A DNA stretch of 64,000 nt, from assembly GCA_039583875.1 (NCBI GenBank), contig CM077151.1:118769519-118833518 (forward strand), read 5' to 3'. Of the stretch, positions 14,820 through 62,715 are shown piece after piece; position 1 is the first letter of the stretch; every line of letters starts with the position of its first letter. The position numbers and the translations under genes were made by a program. The stretch is from Platanthera guangdongensis (taxonomy: Eukaryota > Streptophyta > Magnoliopsida > Asparagales > Orchidaceae). Below the pieces are notes generated by a model. It was not told the origin of the DNA. It worked only from the letters and a program-made list of their open reading frames with translations, and searched no databases.

Positions 14820-15900
14820 ATCGGGCTGCTGTTGAGGAAAAAGATCACCCCGTCGTGCTCTTGCTGGCATCGACGTCTCCAGCATAATCGCTGTCACTGA
14901 ATCCAGTCAACTTGGCCTCGCCCCCCTCCTTCTTGCCGAACCAGAGTCCCCAATCTTGAGTCCCTGCCACATAGCGTAGGATGTGCTTTACCGCGGTGAA
15001 GTGGTCCTCCCGCGGATCCTCCAAGAACCGGCTAACGTATCCAACCGCAAACGCTAGATCCGGGCGAGTGTTAACCAGATACCTGAGGCTCCCCAATGCT
15101 CCTGTATTTTGTTGCGTCGACCGACGGATGCGTACTAAGCTTGCTCAGCTTCAGGCGTGCCTCCATGGGCACTTGACAGGGATTGCACCCGGTCATGCCG
15201 CTCCTCTCCAAGATCTTGCCGGCATAGGCGCCTTGACTTAGAGAGATCCCCCCCGCGCCCTGCTTTACCTCAATGCCGAGGTAGTAGTGAAGCAGGCCGA
15301 GGTCGCTCATCTTGAAGACGGCCGCCATCTCCTTCTTGAAAGTGTTTTGATGTCGCTGGGGCTTGAGCCGGTGATCACAAGGTCATCGACATAGACCCCG
15401 ACTACCAGCTGAGCGTCGCCATTTCGCCTGACGTAGATGGCGTGCTCCGACGGACTCCTCCTGAAGCCGAGCGATACCAGCGTGTCGTCCAGCTTTGCAT
15501 TCCAGGCGCGCGGAGCTTGATGCAGGCCGTACAACGCCTTCCGAAGTTTGAGCATCATGTGCTCCTTGCCAGTGATTATGAAACCCGCCGGCTGCTGGAC
15601 GTAGACCTCCTCCTGTAGATCGCCGTTCAGGAACGCCGATTTGACGTCCATGTGGTGTACCTCCCACCCATCGTGTGCCGCAAGTGCGATGAGCAGACGC
15701 ACGGAGTCGAGCCGGGCCACCGGCGCGAACACTTCGACGTAGTCGATGCCGTGCCGTTGCGCGTAGCCCTTTACCACGAGACGCGCCTTGTGTTTGGACA
15801 CCGCCCCATGCTCATCCCTCTTCACTTTGAACACCCATTTCACGCGATCGCCTTGTGTCCGGGTGGGAGGTCGGCGAGGTGCCAAGTGCCATTCTCCTCG
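14820..15900 (-). pseudogene. Element C reverse transcriptase and RNase H (frameshifted)
   Basis: From 15885 leftwards the minus strand reads the copia [67 protein letters not shown] and the catalytic YVDD in VVGVYVDDLVITG. The frame breaks near 15310, then continues with MSDLGLLHYYLGIEVKQ. After another shift near 15090 it reads RYLVNTRPDLAFAVGYVSRFL and FSDSDYAGDVDASKSTTG (RNase H region). At least two frame changes make it non-functional as one polyprotein. Confidence 0.85.
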
Positions 15901-16560
15901 ATGGACTCAATCTCCTCCATCATTGCCTTCCTCCAGCTGGGGCTGCCCTCAGCCTCGGCGAATGAGGCGGGCTCGTCGGCGCTTACCGCGTGCAGCTCTT
16001 CGACCGCCAGCGCGCGCGTGCAAAACCAGGCGGCGAGGCCGGTCCGATGATGTCGCTGACGTCGCGGAAGCGGAGAGGCCCGTCATCGTCGTGGTCCACG
16101 TCGAGGTTGTCGTCGTCGATGCCGTCCGGTGAGCCGGGCTCCAGTTCGCCACTGGCCGCGCCGGGGAGTGGCGACTGCTCTCCCGGTACACCTCCTCCAG
16201 CATCATCAGCCTCTTGCGCTGCCTGCTCCATGGTCCCGGCTTGCCTCCTGCAGCAGCGGATCAACTTCTTCACGCGATCATCCCCTACCCTCATGGTCGA
16301 CTTCTTCACGCGATCATCCCCTACCCTCATGGTCGCGATTGCGTCCCAGGCTTCCTTGGCCGTAGCCTTCTTGGCGATTGTCGGCACCATCTCCGGTGGT
16401 ACCGCGCGCCGCACAAGGCATCGAGCGCCATCATTTCCTCCTGCGGATCGGCGCCGGCTCCTTCAATGACGTGCCAGAGAGCCCGCGCCCTTAACTTCAC
16501 CTTCACCAGGAGCGCCCAATGGAGTAATTGGTCTTGGTGAGGACGGGTAGCTAGTCCCCG
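15901..16560 (-). pseudogene. Element C gag fragment joined to pol C-terminal linker
   Basis: The minus strand reads a gag (UBN2-type) piece, PPEMVPTIAKKATAKEAWDAI, then MRVGDDRVKK twice because of a 36-bp tandem duplication (16265-16300 and 16301-16336). It then passes to an Asp/Pro/Ser-rich stretch like the linker before RT. Zinc knuckle, protease and integrase are missing: an internal deletion fused gag to the RT leader. Confidence 0.6.
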
Positions 16561-20499: not shown

Positions 20500-23400
20500 T
20501 GGGTTCCGCTCTAGCATCAGATTCCTCGGCTCCCAGGTGTTCTCCTCCCATCCATGGTTGGACCATAACACCTACACGAGGGGAACCTTTTTATTTCGCA
20601 GCACTCGGACCGTGGTATAACCGATCCAGAGTGGCTCCAAACGAACTGATCTATCTGACGCTAGCGGGCCTGCTGTAGTGGTGATATGCTGCTCTGGCTG
20701 AAGAAGATCTCTTCATAGCGAGGAGACATGGAAGACATCGTGGAAGGTCCCCAGCTCTGGCGGCAGCTCTAGCCTGTAGGTTAAGGGGCTGATCCGCTCC
20801 AGAATCAAATATGGCCCCATATATCGAGGGCTGAGCTTCTTGTGCCTCCGCACCGAAGAAACACCATGCATCAGACGTATCTTCAAGAACACTCTGTCCC
20901 CCACCTAGAACTCCACCTTCCGATGTCGCGCATCGTAGTACTTAGCCTGCCTACTCTGGGCCTCCAGCATCCGGTCCCTGATCAATCGTATCTAAGCGTC
21001 CTTATCCTCAATATATTCCGATTCAAGTGCCCTAGGATCCTCATCCTGGACCCAAGATAGCAGTGTCTGGCATTTCCTCCTATAAAGAGCCTCATAAGGT
21101 GTCATCCCAATGCTCTTTTGCTGACTGTTGTTGTAGGAGAACTCGACCAGTGGCAACAGTCTCTCCCAGGGCCTTCCCGTATCCAGTATACACAATTGTA
21201 GCAGATCCTCCATGGTCCTGATGGTCCGCTCTGTCTAACCGTCGGTCTGTGGATGGAAAGCGGTGCTAAAAGCAAGCTGAGAACCCAAGTAAGCCAGCAT
21301 CGTTGTCCACTACCTAGAAGTGAATCGCCGCCACGATCCGAGATAATCGTCTTGGGGACCCCGTGGTAACTAACGAACTGTTCCACAAACAACCTCACCA
21401 AGACAGTAATTGGGTTGTCCTTCCGGATAGGTATAAACCGGGCCAAATTGGTCAGTCTGTCAATAATGACCCAAATAGAATCGTGCCCCGAGTGGGAGTG
21501 AGGCAATCCGTGCACAAAATCCATAGCAATATCCTCAAACTTCCAGTCAGGGACCGGTAGTGACTGTAGCAACCCTCCGGGGCTCTTGCATTATGCCTTT
21601 ACTCACTGACATGTCTCGCAGTGTATCACATAGAAGATGATCTCCCTCTTCATTCTCGGCCAATACATGTTCCTCCGCAGATCCGCTGTCATCTTGGTGA
21701 TACCGGAGTGCACTGAGTACTGAGAACTGTGTGCCTCCCTGAGTATATCCTCCTGGATATCACCTCCTGCGAGTATATAAACACAACCGCAGAAACGAAT
21801 GGGGCCATCAAGCAATGAATAATCACCTGGCCTGCCCCCTTCCAGGGCCCTAAACACCGGCACCAAAGCTGCATCCAACCTCTATAGTACCCTGATGCGC
21901 TCTTGTATATCACATTCCACGATCAAGGAGTTCAAATACTCTCGATAGATCTCCGGCTGGGACTCGGAAACGACCGAAATGTGCATATCCTCTAACATCT
22001 GCAACAGCTCCATAGACATCACCCGAGGCTCCGGTACTGAGGTGCTGGCTCTCCTACTCAAGGTATCTGCCATGGTGTTCGCCTTCCCTAGATGATAATG
22101 CATGGTGTAATCATAATCGTATAAGAATTCAATCCATCTTCTCTGGCGCAGGTTCAGGTCTTTCTGCATGTCAACATACTTGAGGTTCTTGTGATCTGAG
22201 AAGATGTCACAATGAACCCCATATAGGTAATGTCTCCAGATCTTTAAAGCAAATACCACCGCCCCGAGCTCTAAATCAAGTACGGGGTAATTCTGTTCAT
22301 GCTTCTTCAACTGTCTCGAAGCATAAGCGATGACATGTCTGTTTTGCATCAGGACTGCACCCATCCCCTGATATGAGGCGTCAGTATATATGTGAAATCC
22401 TTCCTTCCCAGATGGAAGTACAAGGATGTGGGAAGAGGTGAGCCTGTCCTTCAGCTCCTGAAATGCCACCTCGCACTTCTCTGTCCATGTAAAAGCTGCT
22501 TCCTTCTTTGTCAAGTACGTGAGGGGGAGTGTTATCCTCGAGAAACCCTGCATGAACTTGCGATAATATCTTGCGAGTCACAGAAAACTGCGTATGTATG
22601 ATGCTGACTTTGGCCGCGGCCAATCTCTAACTACCTGCACCTTGGCTGGGTCCACGGCCAATCCTGCCCCACTGATAGTATGCCCTAGAAATGCCACTTC
22701 TTGCAGACAGAAGTGGCACTTGGAGAACTTAGCATGCAATTGGTGCTCTCTCAGCTTCCCCAAAACCAAGGCCAAATGCTGAGTATGGTCTTCCTGTGTC
22801 CGGAGTAGATCAGTATATCATCGATGAAGACTATAACGAATCTGTCCAGGTAGGGCTTGAAGATGCGGTTCATCAAGCTCATGGATGCAGAAGGCACATT
22901 CGTGAGTCCGAATGGCATCACTGTGAACTCATACAATCCATAGAGGGAACTAAAAGCCGTCTTCAGAATGTTCTCCTCCTGGATCCGCAGCTGATAATAA
23001 CTGGATCTTAAATCCAACTTGGAGAACCAAAAAGCTCCCGAAAGCTGATCAAAAAGCTCGTCGATCTGGGGTAGCGGGTATGTATTCCGGACCGTCAATC
23101 GGTTCAGCTCCCGATAGTCGATGCAGAGACGCAGTGAGCCATCCTTCTTCTTAACAAATAACACTGGTGCTCCCTATGGTGATGAGCTCGGTCTCTACCA
23201 GCTCCTGTAGCTGCGTCCTGAACTCTGTTATCTCCTTCGGGGCCATCCTGTACGGTGCCATAGATACGGGCCTCGCTCCTGGCACCAACTGAATGTGGAA
23301 ATTCGTGTCACTGGCTGGTGGCAATCCGGGCAATTTCTCTGGAAACACGTCGGAGAAATCCCGAACCACCAGAATGTCCACAATGTAAGCCTCTGCTCCC

Positions 23401-48844: not shown

Positions 48845-49629
48845 TGTTGGGTACATTGGCTAAATGTACCTGATTTGAAGAAGCCTCACCCAACTCAATG
48901 ATATACATCATAATGTATTTGATGTATGTTGAGTTTGTTTGTGCAGGTTAAGTAATCACTGGACTGAAGCAAAAAGTTTCTAAGTCCATGTGTCGACACC
49001 CAGAGGGAAAGTGTCGACACTTAAGAAGGCTTATGTCGACACCCAGACAAGCAGTGTCGACACTTGGAGTCATTGTGTCAACACTTGGGATGCAGAGTCG
49101 ACACCAGACAGAAAGTGTCGACACTTGGAGCTGTGTCGACACTCAGTGAAGAAAAGTGAAGACAGAAAGTGTCGACACAAGGAGCTGTGTCGACACCCAG
49201 TGAAGCTGTGTCTACACCAGAAAGTGTCGACATTTGGAGCTGTGTCGACACTCAGCAAAAGTCTGCAGAGACTAAGTTAAAGTGTCGACACTCAACATAA
49301 GAGTCAGCACTTGAAGTAAGTGTCGACACTCAACACAATGTGTCGACACACAACCAGAAGAGTCAACATATGAAGTAAGTGTCGACACCCAGCACAATGT
49401 GTCGACACTTAGCTAAAGACTCTACACTTGAAGAAAGTATCGACACAAGGAGCTGTGTCGACACTTAGCAAAGATCAGAAAGATCAACAAAATTATTCTA
49501 AGTAGAAGTGTCGACACTAAGGGAATGTGTCGACACTCAGCTGAAGTCTCAACAAAAAGAAGGTGTGTCGACACAAGGAGCTGTGTCGACACTCAGCAAG
49601 TATCGACATTAAAGACTATGTGTCGACAC
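48845..49629 (+). repeat. Element A 5' LTR, left part (U3)
   Basis: Begins TGTTGGGTACATTGG. From about 48990 to its interruption by B it consists mostly of spaced GTGTCGACAC palindromes. Confidence 0.85.
48990..49629. repeat. GTGTCGACAC palindrome array, left block
   Basis: I count 19 exact copies of GTGTCGACAC plus about seven one-base variants (GTGTCTACAC, GTATCGACAC, ATGTCGACAC and similar) in 640 bp. Spacers of roughly 10-40 bp often read TTGGAGCT, AAGGAGCT or TCAGCAAAG. The last copy is the insertion point of B. The small frames reading through it on both strands are products of the repeat. Confidence 0.95.
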
Positions 49630-50290
49630 TGTTGATGCACGAAAACACAAGGGAGTGTCGAGCACAACCAGCTAACGGTTCGAACACCGGGGGAATAGGG
49701 AAGGAAAGGAGGAGACTGTCGACTAATCGGTTACTAGCGGTCGCGGCTAAAGGACAGACCGAAAAAGGGGGCCGCTGGCAGCGGCAACAGCAGAGTTCGC
49801 CCGCCGCGGCTTGAATGCCACTCTTGCGGCGGGCTTTCCTTTACTTAAAAATGAGAGTTACAACGAGTAAAAGGAGAAGCCGGCCGGGCTACAAGCCGCA
49901 ATACACTAGACCTGAGACCGCAGCTCGTAACAGGCGAGCTCCTGGATCCCAGTCATGGTGTCTTGGGGAGTGCACCCACCCCCTATTTATAGGCTCGGGG
50001 GCCTGCCCAAACGGGCAGGGCTAAAATTACCGGCTGCCCGGGTACAGGAGAACCGGGCAGAGGTGAGGGGAAGCAAAAGAGAAAGAAACAAGAAAGGAGG
50101 GAAGCCGCGCGGCCTGGCGGATTCCACCTGGCGAGCTGACGGCTGGGTCCTTGGGCCTTGTCGCTGAGCAGGCCGGCACTGGCGGCGGCCTGACATGGAG
50201 ACCGCCCGGCTTGGGGGTTTGGCGGCTGGAATAGGCAGACCGCCCGGTCTGGAAAACTGCGCGGGCAGGTCGCGGATTCCGGGCTTAACA
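49630..50290 (-). repeat. Element B, 3' LTR (left on the plus strand)
   Basis: Plus-strand ends TGTTGATGCAC and GGGCTTAACA. Relative to the other LTR it has GGGAGTGTCGAG (versus GGGAGGTCGAG), ATTCCACC (versus ATTCCTCC) and GCAGGCC (versus GCAGGGCC). Small frames inside are identical in both LTRs and are not genes. Confidence 0.95.
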
Positions 50291-50372
50291 TAATCCCCGC
50301 ACATTTTTAAGTTTGCAGAAAACTTCGAAAATGTTGAACTAAGCCGGAGACCGCGACTGCTTCATCGTCGTC

Positions 50373-50380
50373 TATAAAAT
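50373..50380 (+). promoter_or_regulatory. TATA box of antisense gene 1
   Basis: TATAAAAT, 83 bp inside the LTR edge and about 100 bp upstream of the first ATG (50479). A start of transcription near 50405-50410 would give a leader of about 70 bases. It is on the strand opposite to the element's own transcript. Confidence 0.6.
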
Positions 50381-50478
50381 CCCCTGACTCTTGACATTCT
50401 TCAGGATTCCTGCCAAGCACGGGTCGCTACTCGCCACTTGCGGTTAGGATTTTGCAAGCCGACGCGATTTCTTTAGCG

Positions 50479-52508
50479 ATGGATGTGATGTCGTCGATGC
50501 TAGCCCGCAACAAGAAACCGACAGAAACGAAGCAGAGCCGGAGCGAGAATTCGAATGATTCTGCCCGGCAGACCGCCAAGAAGAACGAGAAGCCGGAGAC
50601 AACAGCGGCTTCTGGACCTGAAAAGAGGCCGACAGAGATGGTCGGCGGACCATCGCAAGCCGCAGCCGACCCCAAAGCGGTTTCGAAAGCTGCTCTACTG
50701 CAAACCGGAGATGCCAAATCCTTTGACGTGACTTTCTCCCCATCAGGAGAACCATTACTAAAGATCGCTGGGACGGAGGAGAAGAGTGTTGATTCTGGGA
50801 AACCGACCGAACTGCCGAGCAAGGTCGACTTAATCGTTGTGGATGACAACGAGCCGGAGAAGGCGCTGGAAACCGAGCGGACTGTTGCTGAACAGGGCAA
50901 GCGGGCTGAAAAGGTGTCCGACTCCTTGAAAAGGCGGAAAGAAAGGAGCGAAAACCTTGAAGAAAGGATGAAGAAGAAAATGAGGAAGCTGCACGCCAGA
51001 AACCGGAATATCTCTGAGAAGACCGGCGCGGACAGTCTTCAGCACAGGCCGCACGAGAAGGAGGTGCCCGAGAACCCGCTCACACCGGAGTGCAAGCCGG
51101 GCGAACTGGAGAATACACCTGCGCCTAGCGATTCGCTGAGCGAGCTCCTGAAGGGCATGGAGGCTCTCCAGCGGCAAGACGCGCTATTGTCGACACCAGC
51201 GGCGTCTGAGGAGGTTGACCGCCCCGACATCAAGGTTATTGGGGAGAAGCCTGGCGAACCGGCTTCCGCGGCTTCTGAAGGAGCCGAGAAACTGAAGCTC
51301 CGCGAGAAGATGGAGGAGATGAAGAAACTAATCGCCAACAAGCCGGTGGAGACCGCACATCCATTACTGCAAGGTAAACACCGGGACGTTAGGCGAATTG
51401 TTAAATTCTACAAGTCGTGGTCAAGGAAGAAGGGGCGAATATAATACTAAATCCGCCGGCCAGCTTTTTCCTGACCACGGCTCAACTGAAAAGCCGAAAG
51501 GAAACCGAACGGCTATGGAAAGATAAGCTGAAGAGGATAGATCCTGAGCGGCTCAGGCGGCCAGTGATTAAAATTCATACCGCGGCCTCTGGAGGAGATA
51601 AACATCAAACCGGCGGTCTTATCTTACCGATTTCCTTACAAGAAGGTCGCAACAATCCGGCTGAACCTGACTGCGGTTTGTCTTCTGCAGGTGCACCGGA
51701 GACCGCGATGAAACCGGGCGACTTGACCGCGTTTATATCTACGCTGCCTCCGCCAAGTGTTCGTCAGAAGGAGATGGCCGACTTCCAGAAGGAGGTCGGC
51801 TCGCTGCAGGCGGCTTTGACTGCGGCCACCGAAACTCTGCGGATTAAGGACGAAGAGAAGCGGGTTGCCCAGGAGGCTGCGGAAGCAAGGATCCAAGAGT
51901 TGCAAACCACCCTGGAACAAGAGACCGCCAGGTGGCAAACTGCGCTTGAACAGGAAACCGCGAGGTTGAAGACGGCAATGGAACAAGAGACTGTCAGGCT
52001 CCAGGCCGCGATGAAGGAAGAGACCGCGAGGCTCCAGACCGCAATGGAAACCGCTGAGGCGAAGATTGCCGAGATGCAGGTCACCTTGGAGCAGGAAAGG
52101 GCGGAGAAGTACTTGCTAATGGCCGCGCGGCTGGAAGGAGACAAAGAGCAGATCCCGGATGCTGAAGGCGGCGAAAAACAAGACCTGCCGGCGGAGACCG
52201 GCGGAGAACAGCGGCCTGCGCTACCGACTCCTGCAGAGTTGCCGGAAACTAGCCGCCCGGCCTCTGGCGAGATTTCGCATCCGCCAGTGGCCGCGGCGCC
52301 TAACCAGGTCGCTGCTCCAAGCGGTCTGGGGGCCCAGGCGGTCCACATGATACCGTTTGCGAGAGTTGAGCGCGACGCTGCGCGAATTCATCGGTCTCTG
52401 CATGCGCTTCATAATCTGGTTAGCCAGGTGTATGTTGCGATTGTACAGACCGGTGAACAAGTCGCGCACATGGGACGAGACAGGCCGGAGGAGGACAAAC
52501 GACCCTGA
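50479..52508 (+). CDS. Antisense gene 1: charged coiled-coil protein, about 570 aa
   Basis: Exon 1 is 50479-51373 (ATGGATGTGATG; the frame is open from 50452 without an earlier ATG). Joining donor AAG|GTAAAC to acceptor TTGTCTTCTGCAG|GTGC puts exon 2 at 51691-52508, in frame, ending TGA. The protein is rich in Glu, Lys, Ala and Pro. A basic cluster at about residues 150-178 (KRRKERSENLEERMKKKMRK) could be a nuclear signal. Exon 2 encodes a long coiled coil with four 11-residue repeats of the type LEQETARLKTA (51912-52043), then a Pro/Glu linker and a final helical stretch. No known domain. The alternative is two overlapping frames (to 51444, from 51417) separated by a frameshift; the 317-bp 'intron' also has coding-like content, so the splice model is not certain. 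Confidence 0.6.
51912..52043 (+). repeat. Four 33-bp tandem repeats encoding an 11-residue coiled-coil unit
   Basis: Units start at 51912, 51945, 51978 and 52011 and encode LEQETARWQTA, LEQETARLKTA, MEQETVRLQAA and MKEETARLQTA. Eleven-residue periodicity suggests a straight or slightly right-handed coiled coil. The array continues in weaker form to about 52110. Confidence 0.9.
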
Positions 52509-52917
52509 GCGACTTGAGAGAAACAAGCCGCGCGGACATTCGTATATTGTGTTGTAATATATATATTTTTTTCCTGGATGTTGAACAATTTGATTGCTGT
52601 AAACTGTTGTATTCTATTATGCTGCGAACTGAATGCGGCTTATGCGGCTTGAATAATCCACATGTTTGCTGCTTTGTTCTGAGAAATTTGAAGTTTAGGA
52701 TAGTAGCCGCGCGGTCTGGCGAACAGCGCCGGCTTGAATAATTGATATCCACATGATTCGACATAGAATTTTCTAAGTGCAGGGAAGTAGCCGCTCGGTC
52801 TGACGGACTAAACGGCGGCTTGATCACTAAGCAGAGCTGCACTTCCAGCGGACTTAGGCCGCGCGGCGTGACGACTAGCCGCGATTTGACATGGGCACTG
52901 TAGCATCACGGGTTTTC
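52509..52917 (+). other. Intergenic region between antisense genes 1 and 2
   Basis: AT-rich just after gene 1 (a possible polyadenylation zone with TGTATTCTATTATG), then GC-rich with three CCGCGCGG palindromes (about 52529, 52708, 52859). It serves as the promoter region of gene 2. Confidence 0.5.
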
Positions 52918-52926
52918 TATAAATAG
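52918..52926 (+). promoter_or_regulatory. TATA box of antisense gene 2
   Basis: TATAAATAG, 36 bases upstream of the ATG at 52963. Transcription would start near 52950, giving a very short leader. A strong match to the plant consensus. Confidence 0.7.
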
Positions 52927-52962
52927 CGCAGACCCCGTTGGATTCTTCACAAATCAAGAAGG

Positions 52963-54761
52963 ATGCGGGCTAAGACCAAATCGTCGCGGTCTGACAAGGC
53001 CACAGCCGTCAGGACAGACGCGGCCTCCGCCTTCTACTCAGCTGACCACAAGGAATGCCGGCTTACAAAAGCCGAGCTGGATTCCTTTGTCGAGAAACAC
53101 ATGCAAGGAAGCCCGCTGATCGCGCGGCTTCCTAGGCAGGATGAGCGGATCAACTCTTCCAACGCTAACCAGATCGCGGTCCCCATCGACCATTTCGACT
53201 GCGGGTTCGGCTTCCCGGTCTTGCTAGAGGCCGTAGCGGTCTTTGACCACTACGGAGTTGTGCCCGGACAACTCCCCCCCAACTCGATAGCCGCGATATA
53301 CGGCTTCATTGCTTATCTGCGGTCAGAAAGAGTCCGATTCTCCATGAGACTCTTCCGAGAGTGCTTCTCGGTGCGGTCTATCCCGGACTCCGGGACTAAG
53401 ATCTTCCGGGGGCACCTCTACTTCGGCTGCCGAGGGCTGAAGGTAGTCAACCTGGCCAACAAGATCGCGAACTGGCCGGAGCGGTTTCTGATCTTCGAGG
53501 GCAACCTGGGGCTGCTGCCGGTCGACCCCCAAATCCGCGAAGAAGCCGCCTTCGGCAGCAGCGGCTTGGACGGCAAGGAGAAGGAGATCTTCGACTTCTT
53601 CAGGGGCGAGCGGCTTGACGTGAACTACTACATCCCGCTGCTGCCGTCCCTTGTTGGAATTGAGGCGGAAGAGAGTAAGCTCCAAACCGGCCGAACTGCA
53701 TTGCTAGCCGCACGGCCTGATATCTAACATTGCTTCTGTCTTCGCAGCTGCTGTGGCGGTCCCGCTGAACAAGCCGCAGACGCCGGGCGGCTTGACCCTC
53801 ACACAAAGAGAAAAGAGGGCGAAGCGGGTCAAGCCGGCGCGGGCTGCGGAGGAGGAGGAGTCGGACTCCTCTGGGGAGTTCATGCTGCAAGGAACCGGCA
53901 GCAGCCTGAAGGACGTCCATGGCGAACCGGCCTTGCGGTGGAGTCCTGATGGCAAGTCGGTGACGATCTCCACCGCCCTCCCCTACTGGGGAGCTGAAGA
54001 AGTAAGCCGCCATGCTAATGCGGTTGGCGGCGCGTTGTACGGCAAGCGCAACTTGAGGGCTATGCGACGAGTTCCTCCAGACGACTTGCCGCGGCTAGCC
54101 GCGCAAGTCGGCGCGAGGAGCTTCGTGGCAAGTCACTTCATGGGGCTTGCCTACAAGGAGCTGATGAAAGAGAACAGCGGCCTGAAAACACGGTTAGGCG
54201 AACAGCAAGAAGAGAACAAGCGACTTAAAGAGAAGGAGGCGGTAAGTAATTACCAATACCCGCGCGGTTAGAATTATATAACCGCGCGACCTTACCTTCA
54301 CCTTTGCTTTGCAGGAAATGTACAACCCCGCCAACCCGATCTTCCAAGACCAGGTCTTCCCCCAGCTCGTCCAAGGGATCGACGGAGCGCTTAACCGCCT
54401 CCGGGACATTGGCGGCTTGGCCGCCGGCTTCACCGACTTCACATGCGCCGACATCTACCCTTCCCTGAAGGAGCAGGTGGCCGACGTCTACAAGTCGATC
54501 AAGGGCAAGGCCAAAGTCGCGGAAGAAGTCGGCGAGGTGGCGGGAGAAGCCGTGGAAGAGGTCGGCCAGGGAAGCCGGAGCCCGCACACATCTCCAGAGT
54601 CCGGCGGCCAAGAGTCGGAGACCGCGCGGCCTGACTCGACATCTTCTGATGGTTCAGCGAGCTCCGCGACTAGCAGTGGGTATTCCTTATCATCTGTCGA
54701 TGTTGGCGATGGCAGTGATTTGGATGCTCCTGCGACTAAGAAGCTCAAACCGGACGATTAG
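52963..54761 (+). CDS. Antisense gene 2: putative gypsy-type transposon-domain protein, about 550 aa
   Basis: Three exons, 52963-53674, 53748-54241 and 54315-54761, join in frame. Donors are GTAAGC and GTAAGT, acceptors TTCGCAG and TTTGCAG, and both introns are 73 bp. The stop is TAG. Residues about 45-230 resemble the plant 'putative gypsy type transposon' domain (Pfam PF04195): GFGFPVLLEAVAVFDHYGVV, PGQLPPNSIAAIYGFIAYL, and then RLFRECFSV. After this come a basic segment (KRAKRVKPAR), a coiled coil before intron 2 (ELMKENSGLKTRLGEQQEEN), a helical C-terminal region and an acidic Ser-rich tail ending KKLKPDD. No catalytic motif is evident and the function of the family is unknown. It lies antisense to gag, downstream of gene 1. 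All three exons are free of stops, which is striking next to the broken gag. Confidence 0.75.
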
Positions 54762-56181
54762 ATAAATTTATAACTTGCTTTTGTATTTTGAACTTTTTGA
54801 AATCGGCGGATTGTTTTTGTAACCGCGCGATTAACAATTTTGTAACACTTATTGACATAGTAATGAAGGCATTTTTACCTTACTCTTTGTTGCATCTTAC
54901 TTTTCTTACTTGAATAAGTCCGCGCGGTCTCAGTTTAGCTTCCGATTTAAAATATATAAGTATGTAAACCGGCTGAGTTTGCGCTGCGACTTCATCAAAT
55001 CTGTCCGCAAGAGAGAGATATTTCCCTGCGGTTTATACCGGAGTGCATATCAACAATAAGCCGAGCGGCTAATAATGTAAACCGCAATTTTTCCTTGATG
55101 AATTATTCAACATTATCTGCTGGAAGAGCTTGATTGCCGCGGCTTGCTCATATATAAGCCGTGACCGCTAAGCCGCGCGGTCTATTGTCGCAGTCGGCAA
55201 ACATCCATAATATTGAAATAATAGATTGCGGCTAGGGCAAACTCTGAAGCGAATTACCCGTTTGATTAAAGGAACAAGAATTGAGAAACAAGCTTCGGCA
55301 GATCAATATCCAGGAATTAAGTGCCAGAAGACAGGTCGGGCGACCTATGTTTCATATGAATAACAAACCGGCAATTGATATACATAAGCCGAATAAGATA
55401 CTGAATAGCGGATAGGCGAATAAAGTCGGCCGAGTTCCCAAATATATTAATGATAATCCGGCAGGCAGGAACAGGAAAGTTAAAAATTTAAGCCGGAATA
55501 TCAAACCGGGCGGCTTGTGTAAATAATTATAAAACCCGCACAGGCCGCTAAATAAAACCGCGAGACAGCGGATAGGCTCGTGTTGTCCTGCAAAAATAGC
55601 TGAAGATATGCACTTATGTGTCAATGTGGGCAGGTGCATGTAGCATTGCTTTCCTCACAAAGAACACATAAGCGGGATCGAAATTCTTAAAATCCATGAC
55701 CAATGTCAAGCAGGACAAGTACGCAACGTCTCCGACTGAGGTCAAGCAGGACAAGTACGCAATGTCTGCGACCGAGGTCAAGCGGGACAAGTACGTAAAG
55801 CCTGTCTGTGACTGAAGTCATGCGTGACGGGTACGCAAAGCCTGTCTGTGACTGAAGGTCAAGCGGAAAACCCACTACACATCTGCTACTGAAGCCGAGC
55901 AGGATGTGGAGGGCTTAAGAATTCGAAATGGGCTCTTGCCCCTACATGCATATATATAGGCATAAAAAGTAAAGCTAAAAATAAGCTTCAAAATGAAAAG
56001 GTAACCATTGCATAATGTTAAGGAAGTGACAAAGGATATATATCTGCAATTTTATCATGCCTTATAGAAAAAGAGATATGTTATGTATTACTCTGAACAC
56101 AAGCACTTTTTACTATAGAAAGAGAGAGGAATAACTGCTTGATCTATTGAGCAAGAAAGGAAAGATTGCCTTTGAGAGTCA
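54762..56181. other. Element B spacer where pol would be expected
   Basis: Between the antisense gene and gag there is about 1.4 kb with no RT, integrase or protease motif on either strand. It holds more CCGCGCGG palindromes (about 54918, 55164) and a tandem repeat at 55705-55858. Minus-strand frames of 95 and 62 codons here are low complexity or made of the repeat. Confidence 0.7.
55705..55858. repeat. Four tandem units of 36-40 bp
   Basis: Units begin GTCAAGC(A/G)GGACAAGTACGCAA at 55705, 55741, 55777 and (as GTCATGCGTGACGGG) 55817. The last two share the longer ending AAGCCTGTCTGTGACTGAA. Confidence 0.85.
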
Positions 56182-57290
56182 CTAAATGAAATATTCCTGC
56201 AGCTTTCCAGCTCTTACAAGTTGATTAGCCAATTCCTTGAGAGCTCTGCAATCTTCTGTTAGATGACCAATATCCTTATGATATTTGCAAAAAGCTGCTC
56301 GTGCCGATACTTGATTTTGGATTTCATGCGCCGAGGCTTCTTGAACTCAGGCATTCCCTGAATGATTATCAAAAGATCTTCCATGGGAATTTTGAACTTA
56401 ACATACTTACCTGAATATTTTTCATACTTTGGAGTTTTATCTCGGAGAACATAAGGAGACTTGCAATATTCAACTTGCAAAACATCTTGTGAGGAAATAG
56501 ATTGTTGTTGACTAGAAGTCCCTTGGGATTGCTTAACCATTTGATTCAGGAACGAAACATAACCTTTGTTTGCTTCTTCGCCTATTACGAATGTATTAAC
56601 TCTATCAATAAGATCTCCGAAGCTTTTGGGATATTTTGTGGTGAGCTTGAATTTTAATTGGCCCTCTTGAAGGGCATTTATGAAAGCATGCAAGTAATAG
56701 TCTTGATGGACGTTACAAATATCCAAAACCTCTTTTTGAAACCGATCAACAAAATCTGAATTAGACTCGTGAATTCCTTGCTTGATTCGGAAGAGAGCTC
56801 CAACGTCTCTTTTCCGCTTCCTGTAAATAGCGAATCTGGAAATAAATTGACTTCGAAGATCCTTAAAGCTGGTTACTGATCGAGGTGGAAGGCTGTAAAA
56901 CCATTCCCTTGCAACATTGCCAAAAGACATAACGAAGAGTTTGCATTTTACTCCATTTGACACTTTTCTTAGTGAAATAGCTGATTCAAAAGCTTGCAAA
57001 TGAGAAAACGGATCATCACATGCAGAATACTCTGGGAGACGTGGTTCTCTGAAATTATCGGAAACAGTATCCCACCGAATTCGATCAATGAATGGAGAAG
57101 GGGCCTCTTCTTCGTCCTCACAAAGAGGCTTATTTGCAACAGATTTTAGACCACGCTCAACACTATTTGCAAAAATTTCCTTACGAGGGTCAACAACTTC
57201 ACTATCCAAATACGAGCAATCCTGCACTTCTGAGAGATTCGTAACAACTGAGATGCGGCTCGATGTACCATGACTCTTTGCAGGATTCAT
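56182..57290 (-). pseudogene. Element B gag (Tat/Ogre type, one frameshift)
   Basis: The minus-strand ATG at 57290 opens a 343-codon frame to 56259 with a Retrotrans_gag domain (CKLFVMSFGNVAREWFYSLP, SFKDLRSQFISRFAIYRKRK, FVDRFQKEVLDICNV). The expected C-terminal motif appears in another frame just beyond: FCKYHKDIGHLTEDCRALKE, a C-x2-H-x4-H-x4-C pattern seen in Tat-lineage gag, ending at TAG 56184-56182. One frameshift near 56290-56360 therefore truncates gag before this motif. No protease follows. The gag lies next to the 5' LTR, as it should. Confidence 0.75.
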
Positions 57291-57566
57291 CCTGAAAAGA
57301 TAGAAATAGCCGAACTTTTGCAAGAGACCGCAGAAGAGCGGCGGCTTAACGAGGCGGCTAGACGATTCTGCAAACCGATAAGAAAACCGGCTGAAAAGAG
57401 AGCGGATAGAACGCCAGGTTCTACCGTGCGGGAGGCGGGCTGAAAGCCTTAGCCGGCGGACTCGCGGCTTGCTAGACAGGTCGCCGAACCCTAGAAGATT
57501 GAGCGGTCTGGATCCCTAGACCGCTGATTTCATCGATTAGTCGAGATCTGAAGGTCGCGTGTTAAC
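57291..57566 (-). other. Element B leader between 5' LTR and gag
   Basis: Minus-strand reading from the LTR starts GTTAACACGCGACCTTCAG. No TGG-starting tRNA complement is visible within the first 20 bases, so the primer is unknown. The rest is GC-rich with several GCGG/CCGC words and no gene. Confidence 0.5.
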
Positions 57567-58227
57567 TGTTGATGCACGAAAACACAAGGGAGGTCGAGCA
57601 CAACCAGCTAACGGTTCGAACACCGGGGGAATAGGGAAGGAAAGGAGGAGACTGTCGACTAATCGGTTACTAGCGGTCGCGGCTAAAGGACAGACCGAAA
57701 AAGGGGGCCGCTGGCAGCGGCAACAGCAGAGTTCGCCCGCCGCGGCTTGAATGCCACTCTTGCGGCGGGCTTTCCTTTACTTAAAAATGAGAGTTACAAC
57801 GAGTAAAAGGAGAAGCCGGCCGGGCTACAAGCCGCAATACACTAGACCTGAGACCGCAGCTCGTAACAGGCGAGCTCCTGGATCCCAGTCATGGTGTCTT
57901 GGGGAGTGCACCCACCCCCTATTTATAGGCTCGGGGGCCTGCCCAAACGGGCAGGGCTAAAATTACCGGCTGCCCGGGTACAGGAGAACCGGGCAGAGGT
58001 GAGGGGAAGCAAAAGAGAAAGAAACAAGAAAGGAGGGAAGCCGCGCGGCCTGGCGGATTCCTCCTGGCGAGCTGACGGCTGGGTCCTTGGGCCTTGTCGC
58101 TGAGCAGGGCCGGCACTGGCGGCGGCCTGACATGGAGACCGCCCGGCTTGGGGGTTTGGCGGCTGGAATAGGCAGACCGCCCGGTCTGGAAAACTGCGCG
58201 GGCAGGTCGCGGATTCCGGGCTTAACA
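57567..58227 (-). repeat. Element B, 5' LTR (right on the plus strand)
   Basis: Same 661 bp as 49630-50290 apart from three single-base differences. The outer end is followed by GACAC. Contains the LTR promoter at 57919-57928. Confidence 0.95.
57919..57928 (-). promoter_or_regulatory. Element B LTR TATA box
   Basis: Minus strand reads CTATAAATAG, about 300 bp into the LTR, consistent with transcription of the element leftwards through gag. The copy in the other LTR is at 49982-49991. Confidence 0.7.
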
Positions 58228-58232
58228 GACAC

Positions 58233-58515
58233 CAAGAAGCAGTGTCGACACTTAACAGTTACAACACATGAAGATGTGTCGACACAAAGGTGATGTGCCG
58301 ACACTTAGAAGAATTCAGTAAAAGACAGAAGATCAAGTATTTGTGTCGACACTCAATTTTAGTGTCGACACCTGAAGAAGAATCTGTGTCGAGACATACA
58401 AGGAGTTGTGTCGACACCTTGTAGACTTGTGTCGACACTTACACAGCATGTGTCGACACTTGGACTATAAGTGTCGACACTTAAAGACAGAAAGTCTCGA
58501 CACTTTCAGACAGTT
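58233..58515. repeat. GTGTCGACAC palindrome array, right block
   Basis: Continuation of the array of A beyond B: eight exact copies (first at about 58242) and variants GTGCCGACAC, GTGTCGAGAC and GTCTCGACAC. It ends about 120 bp before the LTR TATA box. Confidence 0.95.
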
Positions 58516-58636
58516 AGAGATTTTCAAGAAATGACTGGATGACTTGACAGCTGCCGTTCCAGCCGGTCTACAGCACCTGTCAGAGATATCAAAAGTCAGT
58601 TATGGACTGGACCAGCCAGTTACCATGAAGAAGGCC

Positions 58637-59565: not shown

Positions 59566-59665
59566 AAGGTTCCTCAAAAAGGACTAACAGTCTGAGGAGA
59601 TCCTGTTTGGCAGATTCAGTGTAAGGCAAATCACAGATTCAAGAAATTCAAGAATATCAAGAAAC

Positions 59666-60850
59666 ATGGGTTCCTCTGAGAATCACAAGGAATTGGGTTC
59701 CATGAAATTACCCATATGCAGGAAAGAGATCTTTGGGATCTGGAAGGAAAGGGTAAGGCTGTTTATGGAGGCCTCAGACCCTAGAATCTACATCACAGTA
59801 AAGGAAGGGCCTTATGTGCCCATGAAGATTTCAGTTTTAGATGCAAATCAGAGAACTCCAAAGGATTTCTCTGAGATGACTAAGGATGAGATTGTCCTAG
59901 CCACATTGGACAAGAGGGCACAGAACATAATAGTGAGTGTCATTGATGATGCAACTTTTCAGAATCTTATACACTGTAAGACAGCCAAAGAGATGTGGGA
60001 CACTCTTATAGTGTATATGGAAGGATCTGAAGAAGTCAGACAAGATAGAAAATCCTTGCTAAATCAGGAGTATGAGAGTTTTAGACAAGGTAAAGGTGAT
60101 AGCATAACTGAGTGCTACAAGAAGTTCTACAGAATAGTTAATGAACTCATGTCTTATGGAAGAGAGTTCAGTAACTATGAACTAAATGACAAGTTCCTAA
60201 GGTCCCTAACCAAAGATTGGGACACAAAGATCTGTGCCATTAGAGAAATGGCTAAGTTGGGGGAAATTCCTCCTCCTACACTGTTTCGCAAGTTATTGTC
60301 TTATGAAATGCAATTGACAGTGAGGAAGGAGGAGGAGAAATTAACAAGGACTGAGCACAAGGAAAGAACTGTTGCTTTCAAGACAGAAGTTCCAAGAAAG
60401 TGCAGGAATAAGTCATCAACTCCACCTCCAGAGGTAGTTGAATCAGAATCAGATGAGTCAGTCAGTACAAAGACTGAGAGCAGTGAAAGTGATGAAGACT
60501 TTGCTGCCTTCACTAGACACTTTCAGAAATTCTTGAAGAAGAAATAATGGAGGTCAAGACCTTCTACTTCAAAGGGAAAGGAAGTCTTTTATCAAGAGAA
60601 AAAGACTTCAAAGAAAGACAGGAAGAGGACAAAGTCAAGCAAGGCAACTGGATCTAAGATAGTGTGTTATTGCTGCAATAGACAGGGCCATGTTATTGCA
60701 GATTGTCCAGAGAAGAGAAAGGAATTTGGTGACAGGAAAAAGGCTCACTTCAAAGGCAAGAAAGAAAGTCTTTTGTTGCCAAGAAGGAGAAGACTCTATC
60801 AGATATCTCTTCTTCAGAAACTGAGTCTGAGGCTGAAGCCTACATAGGGC
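59666..60850 (+). pseudogene. Element A gag, with one in-frame stop and a frameshift
   Basis: The ATG at 59666 opens 293 codons (MGSSENHKELGSMKLPICRK...) with the copia gag core: FGIWKERVRLFMEA, TAKEMWDTLIVYMEGSEEVR, NQEYESFRQGKGDSITECYK, LRSLTKDWDTKICAIREM. A TAA stop at 60545-60547 is followed, in the same frame, by a basic stretch and a CCHC zinc knuckle CYCCNRQGHVIADC (about 60668). The frame then shifts at about 60768 and a stop follows at 60845. Up to the TAA the protein packages RNA; beyond it the knuckle would be lost without read-through. Confidence 0.85.
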
Positions 60851-61707
60851 TGTTTGCTGAAGAAGAAGAGGAAGAATTCATGCAGATAATGGAGTCTATT
60901 TATGAACAAGAAGACAGTCAATGCCAAGGGCTAATGGCTTTCACAGAGAGTGTCAAAATCCTGGAACAGCCAGGACCCAGTCAGGTACAAAGTTCAAGTT
61001 TAAATTCAGTTTCTTGTTCTAGTTCAGAATCAGATTCATCTTCATCAAGTGATGAAAGTGCATCTGAGTCTGAGGATGATATTCATCAGCTTATAGATGA
61101 ATATAAGGTGCTGTTGCAAGCTTACAAGAAAAGCAAGTCCCTACCCAAAAGTCAGGCAAAGGAAATTGCTGATCTTAAAGCTGCTGTAACAGATTTTGAG
61201 AAGCAATTTGATCAAAAGCTGAATGAGATAGCCAGACTGAAACACATAACAGTGATTCAGATGGGCACTATCACCTTTAAGAATGATCAAATCAAGAGTC
61301 TGGAGATAAATCTTCAGAAAGAGAGAGATCTTGTTGCTAGGTTTTCTAAACCTAAGTCAGTGCTACCTTTAATTGATGAATTTGTTCATCATAAAGGCAA
61401 GGCTGGACTGGGCTTTATTAGACCTGCAGGGACTGAGCAGTCCAAGTGTAAGTCCAAGGGCAAAGCCCCAACATTCAACAAGCCTGCTGTAGACAAGACA
61501 GCCAAGGCTGTACCTAAGCAAAGGTACAATAAGTTTGAATGTTTGTGCTGTGGCAAAGTTGGCCATTTTGCAGTAGACTGTTGGCACAATGCTAGTGCCA
61601 AAGTGAGTACCAAGCTACCTGGTGGAAAGCCAGTAGGTAGCTATGTCAGATTGCAGACTAACAAGTACCAAGGACCCAAGAATTCTTTGGGTTCTAAGGT
61701 TCATTAA
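60769..61707 (+). CDS. Element A gag C-terminal extension: acidic, coiled coil, second zinc knuckle
   Basis: Open in frame 1 from about 60769 (first ATG 60880) to TAA 61705-61707. An acidic and Ser-rich segment (SSSSESDSSSSSDESASESE) is followed by a coiled coil (about 61100-61340), a basic linker, then a second CCHC motif CLCCGKVGHFAVDC (about 61540). It continues the gag region after the frameshift. The closing TAA lies seven bases before the next open frame, which is in the same frame, so gag and pol are divided by an in-frame stop, as in some SIRE elements that use stop suppression. Confidence 0.75.
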   Translation, partial: SFVAKKEKTLSDISSSETESEAEAYIGLFAEEEEEEFMQIMESIYEQEDSQCQGLMAFTESVKILEQPGPSQVQSSSLNSVSCSSSESDSSSSSDESASESEDDIHQLIDEYKVLLQAYKKSKSLPKSQAKEIADLKAAVTDFEKQFDQKLNEIARLKHITVIQMGTITFKNDQIKSLEINLQKERDLVARFSKPKSVLPLIDEFVHHKGKAGLGFIRPAGTEQSKCKSKGKAPTFNKPAVDKTAKAVPKQRYNKFECLCCGKVGHFAVDCWHNASAKVSTKLPGGKPVGSYVRLQTNKYQGPKNSLGSKVH

Positions 61708-61713
61708 TCTGTT

Positions 61714-62715
61714 TTGCAGGTGAGTCCAAGTGGCCATACCCCAACATGGTACTTGGACAGTGGATGTTCTAGACATATGACTGGAACTAAAGGATTACTA
61801 AAGGACTACATTCCAGTAAAAGATGGTCCAAAAGTCACCTTTGGTGGTTCTGAAAAAGGAATCATCAAAGGGTTTGGTAACATTTCTACAAACTTGGTTA
61901 CCATTACTCAAGTGGCTTATGTTAAAGGGTTGAAACACAACCTAATAAGTATAAGTCAATTAAGTGATGTAGGGTATGACATCTCATTTGTTAAAAATGG
62001 TTGTCATATCAAGAGGTCAAGTGATCAAGAGATCATTTTGACAGGTTATAGGAAGAGGAATGTCTACTGCCTAGACATTATGGTTGAGAACAATGGTTCT
62101 CCAGTTTGTCTTGTAGCTGATGAGACAGTCTCTCATTGTGTCAAATGGCACAAGAGGCTTGCCCATCTTAACTACAAGACTATTAGCAAACTCTTTAGCA
62201 AAGAGTTAGTGAGGAATGGTCCTCAAGTTAAGTGTGTTAAAGATGGTATTTGCTCAGCTTGTCAAAAGGGCAAGCAGACTAAATCCACCTTTAGAAGCAT
62301 AGAAAACAAAGATGCTGTGAGGTGTTTATACCTCTTGCATATGGATCTCTTTGGTCCAATGCCAGTTCACAGCTTAGGTAGGAAGGTCTATACCTTTGTA
62401 GTTGTAGATGACTACTCAAGGTTTTCCTGGGTGTTCTTCTTAAGACAGAAATCTGAAACACCTAGTGTCTTCTATAGCTTTGTCAAGCAAATTCAGAATG
62501 AACTAAATAGTACAGTGGTCAAAATTAGAAGTGACCATGGTACTGAATTTCAGTCTGATAGCATGACAAAACTGTGTGAAGACTTTGGGATATTTCAAGA
62601 ATTCTCTTCACCTAGAACACCTCAGCAAAATGGCATTGCTGAGAGGAAGAATAGAACCTTGATAGAGGCTGGTAGGACCCTACTAAGTGATACATCACTG
62701 CCAGAATATTTCTAG
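61714..62715 (+). CDS. Element A protease, pre-integrase and integrase core
   Basis: Aspartic protease TWYLDSGCSRHMTG (61747-61790), pre-integrase region with the zinc-binding H-H-C-C pattern (HKRLAHLNY ... CSACQKGKQT, about 62150-62280), integrase core with the three acidic positions in MDLFGPMP / VVDDYSRFSW, IRSDHGTEFQ and QQNGIAERKNRTL. The frame stops at TAG 62713-62715 because of one extra base there. The next 165 bp continue in frame 2. Confidence 0.9.
   Translation: MQVSPSGHTPTWYLDSGCSRHMTGTKGLLKDYIPVKDGPKVTFGGSEKGIIKGFGNISTNLVTITQVAYVKGLKHNLISISQLSDVGYDISFVKNGCHIKRSSDQEIILTGYRKRNVYCLDIMVENNGSPVCLVADETVSHCVKWHKRLAHLNYKTISKLFSKELVRNGPQVKCVKDGICSACQKGKQTKSTFRSIENKDAVRCLYLLHMDLFGPMPVHSLGRKVYTFVVVDDYSRFSWVFFLRQKSETPSVFYSFVKQIQNELNSTVVKIRSDHGTEFQSDSMTKLCEDFGIFQEFSSPRTPQQNGIAERKNRTLIEAGRTLLSDTSLPEYF

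Follow-up and report, generated by a model that had tools for sequence, protein, structure and literature searches.

Anatomy of the element

The window analysed here, a 64,000-nucleotide stretch of the genome of the orchid Platanthera guangdongensis (G000:C5:118769519-118833518 in a 4.25-Gb assembly), contains at positions 49630-58227 a long terminal repeat (LTR) retrotransposon of 8,598 bp, whose sense strand is the minus strand and which carries, besides gag, two genes on the opposite strand. Its LTRs, of 661 bp each, lie on the minus strand at 49630..50290 (the low-coordinate end, and the 3′ LTR in element sense) and at 57567..58227 (the high-coordinate end, and the 5′ LTR), enclosing an internal region of 7,276 bp. 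Aligned over 662 columns, the pair differs by one substitution, as an earlier sequence-only reading of this stretch had counted, and by two gap columns that the reading had missed. The Kimura two-parameter (K2P) distance between them is 0.0015; with a rate for P. guangdongensis of 1.65e-8 substitutions per site (PMC9023349; printed per Ma, taken here as per year), hand arithmetic would make the window copy about 50,000 years old. The element is flanked by a target-site duplication (TSD), GACAC, at 49625..49629 and 58228..58232. On its own this duplication is weak evidence, because GACAC occurs 34 times in 2,402 bases of the flanking array: the element is surrounded (49000-49629 and 58228-58530) by irregular short repeats with the palindrome GTGTCGACAC in many copies, which makes GACAC very common locally.

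The two plus-strand genes are free of stops through five predicted exons and encode 570 and 550 residues, as the sequence-only reading had proposed. Gene 1 (570 codons) is predicted to consist of two exons, 50479..51373, which matches no Pfam family, and 51691..52508, with only sub-threshold matches of coiled-coil type. Gene 2 (550 codons) is predicted to have three, at 52963..53674, 53748..54241 and 54315..54761, the first of which contains the only Pfam family found in gene 2, PF04195 (Transposase_28, TRP28; E=7e-9 and a score of 36.2 bits, the cut-off being 26.2), which places the antisense genes among those of the Tat/Retand kind, again as proposed. The introns are all predictions with GT-AG borders, and the gene 1 acceptor at 51690 was picked on context, ten alternatives for the same donor being also in frame. 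A TATA-like box, TATAAAA, stands on the plus strand at 50373..50379, 106 nt 5′ of the gene 1 ATG, and is kept in 19 of 21 copies of the family (L013 and L026 are without that stretch); another, TATAAATA, at 52918..52925 (plus strand), 45 nt 5′ of the gene 2 ATG, is present in all 21 copies and in two loci of an older subfamily (L039 and L040), where the splice sites and stop of gene 2 are also kept. TATAAA[AT] occurs three times on the element's plus strand. An own promoter is reported for gene 23 of the Grande element (PMC7264820).

No homologue of gene 1 exon 1 was found at E<=0.001 among 3,352 candidates, and the C-terminal part of exon 2 has a homologue in another locus, L030, in a frame that lies upstream of TRP28 there (34% over 71 aa, E=8e-13). 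With gene 2 exon 1, a profile search returned 19 proteins, every one named Platanthera, and six protein matches to this exon belong to Platanthera zijinensis and P. guangdongensis.

The gag region occupies 56185..57290 on the minus strand, with PF03732 (E=3e-10) and, by pattern match, a zinc-knuckle-like motif. This is a sense gag of retrotransposon type, with a domain that does not separate Retand from other lineages. The frame is broken in the window copy, and the break is absent from the 13 copies with an unbroken gag; it is private to the window copy. The frameshift described in the sequence-only reading is real in this copy and does not extend to the family. Between gag and gene 2 lies a spacer (54762..56184), whose length differs among copies.

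A family of copies without pol

A comparison of gene 2 exon 1 with the genome gave 1,600 first-look candidates; the 40 best, among them the window's own, matched at 98-100%, and 20 of the 39 others were retrieved. Choosing the sample by similarity in gene 2 exon 1 should give synonymous differences no advantage over amino-acid ones. Both LTRs are complete in 15 of the 20, with element lengths of 8,579-8,797 bp and LTR K2P distances of 0-0.0091, and 14 of the 15 are flanked by a perfect 5-bp TSD of their own, so that the family, like the window copy with its near-identical LTRs, is indeed young and recently mobile. The exception, L024, sits without a TSD in a tandem array (G000:C8:75555447-75571849) with three gene 2 matches spaced 7,920-7,921 bp apart, probably an LTR-internal-LTR tandem from unequal recombination.

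Frames are unbroken in 13 (gene 1), 11 (gene 2) and 13 (gag) of the 20 other copies, and all three are unbroken in seven; gene 2 is both unbroken and provided with canonical splice sites in ten. The antisense genes are thus not specially well preserved, and the suggestion, made from the window copy, that they are the best kept part of the element is not confirmed. At least one of the three genes is broken in 13 of the 20, and decay after insertion is therefore ongoing.

In all 21 aligned copies gag runs into the same spacer, which is homologous directly past gag. No pol is recognisable in this spacer, as the sequence-only reading had stated: frames internal to it reach at most 100 aa, and the two longest, the only two scanned, have no Pfam match. 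When element frames of at least 20 aa were compared with a pol-bearing relative (L030/L038), matches occurred only in gag, in the antisense genes and in frames opposite these. An older, P0004-type subfamily, read in loci L041 and L042, is about 87% identical from spacer to LTR (about 13% diverged), and its gag ends one codon later in both loci. The build without pol is common to all 21 aligned copies and to both of these loci, and the P0004-type subfamily was accordingly rejected as a full partner. In L041 (positions 1-2910), pieces that resemble L038 in its frames for RNase H and integrase lie about 2.4 kb outside the element's 5′ LTR.

Purifying selection on the three genes

Within the family, variants were compared with a mutation spectrum derived from 3,809 noncoding positions in the alignment that supplied them (20 sequences, without L013). 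For variants shared by at least two copies, the ratio of nonsynonymous to synonymous changes was 0.39 of expectation in gene 1 (p=2.5e-4), 0.22 in gene 2 (p=1e-8) and 0.46 in gag up to 56341 (p=1e-3), by binomial tests that take variants as independent. Singletons gave 0.66, 0.58 and 0.46, respectively, and shifted same-strand frames gave 1.2-4.3.

Between the two pol-less subfamilies, the ratio of nonsynonymous to synonymous rates (dN/dS) for gene 2 is 0.14 (bootstrap 0.10-0.20) against both L039 and L040, over 550 and 549 codons without stops. For gene 1, where the comparison covers part of exon 2 and exon 1 lies outside it, dN/dS is 0.23 and 0.31 over 241 codons, with one stop in L040, and for gag it is 0.35 and 0.33 over 315 codons, with a stop in each locus. 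Shifted frames give 1.9-2.2 for gene 2 and 0.84-0.89 for gag. The sequence-only reading had named a dN/dS near 1 across copies and a pol in the spacer among the results that would speak against it; the values between subfamilies lie at 0.14-0.35, and the spacer yielded no pol.

Synonymous divergence is uneven, with dS about 0.49 in gene 2 versus 0.22 in gag. Intron identity between the subfamilies is 79.5-80.8% (two introns, 73 bp), nearer the gag value, and a chimeric origin was set aside as the reading of this gap; the simpler one, not proven, is that synonymous sites change faster in the G+C-rich genes. If the intron distance of about 0.23 is taken as yardstick instead, the ratio comes out, by hand arithmetic, at about 0.3 in gene 2 and 0.45 in gene 1.

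On these substitution patterns, all three genes are judged to be under purifying selection. That the genes are open merely through the youth of the copies, with no selection at all, is the least probable of the alternatives, to be entertained only if the alignments are wrong. It has on its side the small LTR distances and the frequency of broken genes given above; against it, shared variants are depleted of amino-acid changes, and in the older subfamily the antisense genes keep their splice sites and a dN/dS of 0.14-0.31. Alternatively, the antisense RNA itself could be functional, for example as double-stranded RNA with the sense genome, and the proteins irrelevant, an RNA function of antisense open reading frames (ORFs) having been proposed (PMC7264820). 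Here one frame does speak against a purely protein-level reading: in each gene one antisense frame is also low, at 0.42-0.49 for shared variants, the other antisense frames giving 0.85-3.3. A low value is expected there, since third positions coincide. With two of the three antisense frames at about 0.85 or more, and with shifted same-strand frames above 1, the constraint follows the plus-strand protein frame, and a function of the RNA alone is very unlikely.

Since the older subfamily shares the build without pol, open frames and constraint appear to have outlasted the loss of pol by a long time, barring a supply of these genes through recombination with full elements that went unseen. Of the two accounts in the sequence-only reading, selection and very recent derivation from a complete element, selection fits and mere recency does not, given a pol-less build shared with an older subfamily.

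Search for a pol donor

The main rival explanation is that recombination of this kind took place, i.e. that constraint on the genes operates only in a pol-bearing relative as yet unseen, and that pol-less copies are resupplied by template switching or recombination without being under selection themselves. Exchange between lineages does occur, as shown by the copy L009, a mosaic that differs from the window copy by 0.2% in gene 2 but by 3.1% in the LTR, and pol-bearing elements with homologous antisense genes exist. One such relative was read in L038, in which Pfam recognises RNase H and integrase domains, and in the overlapping locus L030, which carries its antisense TRP28; reverse transcriptase (RT) was not recognised in the five frames scanned in L038 and L037. 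It is a distant relative, its TRP28 exon being 54% identical to that of the element, gene 2 exons 2 and 3 41% and 30%, the gene 1 C-terminus 34% and two pieces of gag 38% and 52%, and L038 was rejected as pol donor on account of these distances. A single frame of L038 (3757-5250) contains an RT_RNaseH-type domain together with a second RNase H-like domain (RVT_3, RNase_H).

Searches with TRP28 gave 25,434 and 26,153 first-look candidates, of which 150 each were scored; P0004 matches were stop-free in 139 cases among the best 150 listed (a hand count, in a list biased to good matches). A pattern for the end of gag without a stop at the family's stop position, which would miss relatives with different residues there, gave 274 matches versus 16 in a control. 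By hand count, 90 of the 100 listed among the 274 carry the gag-end word of the older subfamily. One of the ten other listed matches, L043, was considered as a gag-pol junction and proved to be unrelated, a chance match. With the only pol-bearing element that was read so distant, and the listed gag-end matches carrying for the most part the word of a subfamily that lacks pol in both loci read, resupply from a full relative is rather doubtful, and is still the alternative to be taken most seriously.

A dense half-site motif

The element carries a field of 73 copies of a short motif, here called the half-site (A[AG][AG]CCGC, or GCGG[TC][TC]T on the other strand), between 49806 and 58180, and the other 55.4 kb of the window have 13. 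Gag, the tandem repeats and the spacer adjoining gag are free of half-sites. Those of the element are distributed over the left LTR (8), the region upstream of gene 1 (1), the gene 1 intron (3), the intergenic region (6), the part of the spacer at 54762-55690 (9), the untranslated leader (57291..57566, minus strand; 5), the exons of gene 1 (17) and those of gene 2 (16). The 32 noncoding half-sites compare with a mean of 5.1 (maximum 13) in order-2 random sequences and of 11.2 (maximum 19) in order-3 ones. The word CCGCGCG occurs 16 times in 3,465 noncoding bp, the top 7-mer in 100 order-2 random sets reaching a mean of 6.2 and a maximum of 9. In the exons, shuffles of synonymous codons gave a mean of 7.9 (maximum 15) for gene 1 and 4.4 (maximum 10) for gene 2, and none of 1,000 shuffles reached the observed count in either gene.

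Half-sites also tend to be better conserved than the remaining noncoding columns, with identities of 0.905 versus 0.837 in L039, 0.904 versus 0.830 in L040, 0.973 versus 0.876 in L041 and 0.938 versus 0.869 in L042, and 8 of 12, 7 of 12, 15 of 16 and 12 of 16 of them, respectively, are still half-sites. Some abut in pairs, for example over 14 bp at 55170..55183; other strict pairs start at 50102, 54619 and 58038 (the first and last of which are the same site in the two LTRs), and near ones at 52704 and 53705.

A related, pol-bearing family, of P0006 type, seems to favour another word, AGTCCGC, which shares the CCGC core. The triplet most often found in front of CCGC is AGT in eight of eight sets outside gag-pol (L030 with L038; L038 beyond gag with L044; and L029, L031, L033, L034, L035 and L037), where whole loci include exons, L044 may extend beyond the element, and L032 and L036 were left out. 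CCGC density is 12-18 per kb in these sets and 2.8 per kb in the gag-pol of L038.

Such sites need not concern the antisense proteins at all, and could instead be sites for a host factor, part of an RNA signal or the outcome of local duplication. Their presence in transcribed regions as well as in LTRs, and the change of word around a constant core in the P0006-type family, would fit this. However, they are dense in the half of the element with the antisense genes, in the LTR and in the leader and missing from the 1,106 bp of gag (which is also poorer in G+C), and those in exons exceed what codon-preserving shuffles produce. A role unconnected with the antisense proteins is therefore regarded as unlikely.

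Comparison with known systems and proposed explanation

The anatomy corresponds in many respects to that of Retand elements. In those with TRP28 (Grande with its gene 23, RIRE2, Silene Retand), PF04195 is likewise encoded opposite to gag, toward the 3′ LTR (PMC11963269, PMC7264820), and a further antisense ORF and tandem repeats are likewise described in the same region. Several antisense ORFs are usual, with 104 in 63 Retand clusters (PMC11963269). The LTRs of those clusters measure 315-1,194 bp and their internal regions 7,380-12,869 bp; the LTR here falls inside the range, and the internal region just below it. The difference is that this element lacks recognisable RT, RNase H and integrase. 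Among the 63 clusters, the ten reported as defective are without gag, without gag and aspartic protease (AP), or without RNase H (RH) and integrase (INT); the survey required an uninterrupted RT, and because of this, families without pol could not appear in it (PMC11963269). TR-GAG elements likewise have LTRs, a Gag frame, no pol and recent mobility (PMC8704663), a full Gag being found here in 13 of the 20 other copies and not in the window copy. They are described with a single ORF, whereas here two antisense genes are also under selection. Judged by its sequence, the element is a Retand-type one reduced to gag and antisense genes, i.e. a TR-GAG-like parasite with two accessory proteins.

VANDAL elements are DNA transposons. 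Their VANC proteins are reported to bind a motif carried by the element itself (PMC5735166, PMC10398659), and in Arabidopsis VANDALs, as here, short motifs are dense and differ among related families; in the present element the accessory protein is a proposed one. The VANDAL motif is described as mainly noncoding, whereas the half-site is found in exons too. The likeness lies in the motif and in its difference between families, and in the second family the motif is weaker and the loci are non-independent.

The explanation that we favour, and hold at about even odds, is that of a Ty3/gypsy family of Retand type, non-autonomous, in which the loss of pol preceded the divergence of today's copies and subfamilies, and which retained the Gag frame and the two plus-strand genes and is mobile as a gag-plus-accessory element with self-binding proteins. 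RT, RNase H and integrase would be supplied in trans by another Retand-type element. The plus-strand genes would be transcribed from their own promoters into mRNAs for nuclear proteins, at least one of which, the TRP28 product, may bind half-sites on the DNA of its own element and so keep it expressed or unsilenced. TRP28 is predicted to be DNA-binding, and the product of Grande gene 23 is described as nuclear (PMC11963269, PMC7264820). Selection on the proteins of an element that borrows its pol calls for a benefit to the encoding lineage, and self-motif binding would supply one: with the sites on the element itself, a copy could profit from the protein of its own lineage, and a parasite would thus have reason to keep its antisense genes. 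By analogy with VANC, we infer that the accessory proteins are self-binding. The more specific proposal, that TRP28, the gene 1 protein or both bind a family-specific half-site with a CCGC core, that related families have diverged in protein and motif together, and that this is the function of Retand-type antisense genes and the reason why a pol-less lineage keeps them, is put forward tentatively and on balance is somewhat improbable.

Several points weigh against these proposals. The half-site was defined from this element after inspecting it, and CCGCGCG is unexceptional when compared with order-3 random sets (2,971 bp, maximum 21). Some short regions are unenriched, with no half-site in the gene 2 introns and the single one upstream of gene 1. 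One-sided P values for half-site conservation are 0.065 (L039), 0.050 (L040), 0.0005 (L041) and 0.020 (L042), and the copies are related within each of the pairs L039/L040 and L041/L042. The AGT sets are related and partly overlapping (L029 and L037 are one element), and without the tandem array the excess of AGTCCGC in L030/L038 is marginal (8 versus random means of 4.6-4.9 and maxima of 8-9). Structure predictions for gene 2 exon 1 are of low confidence, with a mean predicted local distance difference test score (pLDDT) of 33.8 for seven sequences and 42.4 for 21, and support no DNA-binding fold. Finally, no pol-bearing partner with similar LTRs was found, and no full survey of LTR-sharing elements was made.

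Antisense genes of the Retand type are described as being of unknown function (PMC7264820, PMC11963269), and in the search listings of one open-access library no published description was seen of pol-less Retand families with selected antisense genes, or of the half-site motif. A lineage without pol that keeps Gag and antisense proteins under selection is a natural experiment, which suggests that the antisense proteins are of use to the encoding copy or its near relatives, and not merely to full elements. A family-specific half-site makes the purpose of these genes testable by binding and, if such binding is true, LTR retrotransposons would join VANDAL transposons in having accessory proteins that bind the DNA of their own element.

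Other features of the window

Within the spacer, 55691-55842 consists of four direct-repeat units of about 40 bp each, a usual feature of the region between pol and the 3′ LTR in Retand elements. Part of the leader may resemble the interior of a plant tRNA, and no primer-binding site is claimed. The start of the leader (57516-57566, about 50 nt) shows by eye one or two base differences in L041 and L042, in surroundings that differ by about 13%. The window has a run of N at about 16.85-17.37 kb and, on the minus strand, reverse-transcriptase-like frames of other retroelements, recognised by eye, at 15307-15906 and 21882-22577. At 59588-62715 (plus strand) lie frames that by eye resemble the gag and integrase of a Copia-type element, whose upstream region may have received the present insertion.

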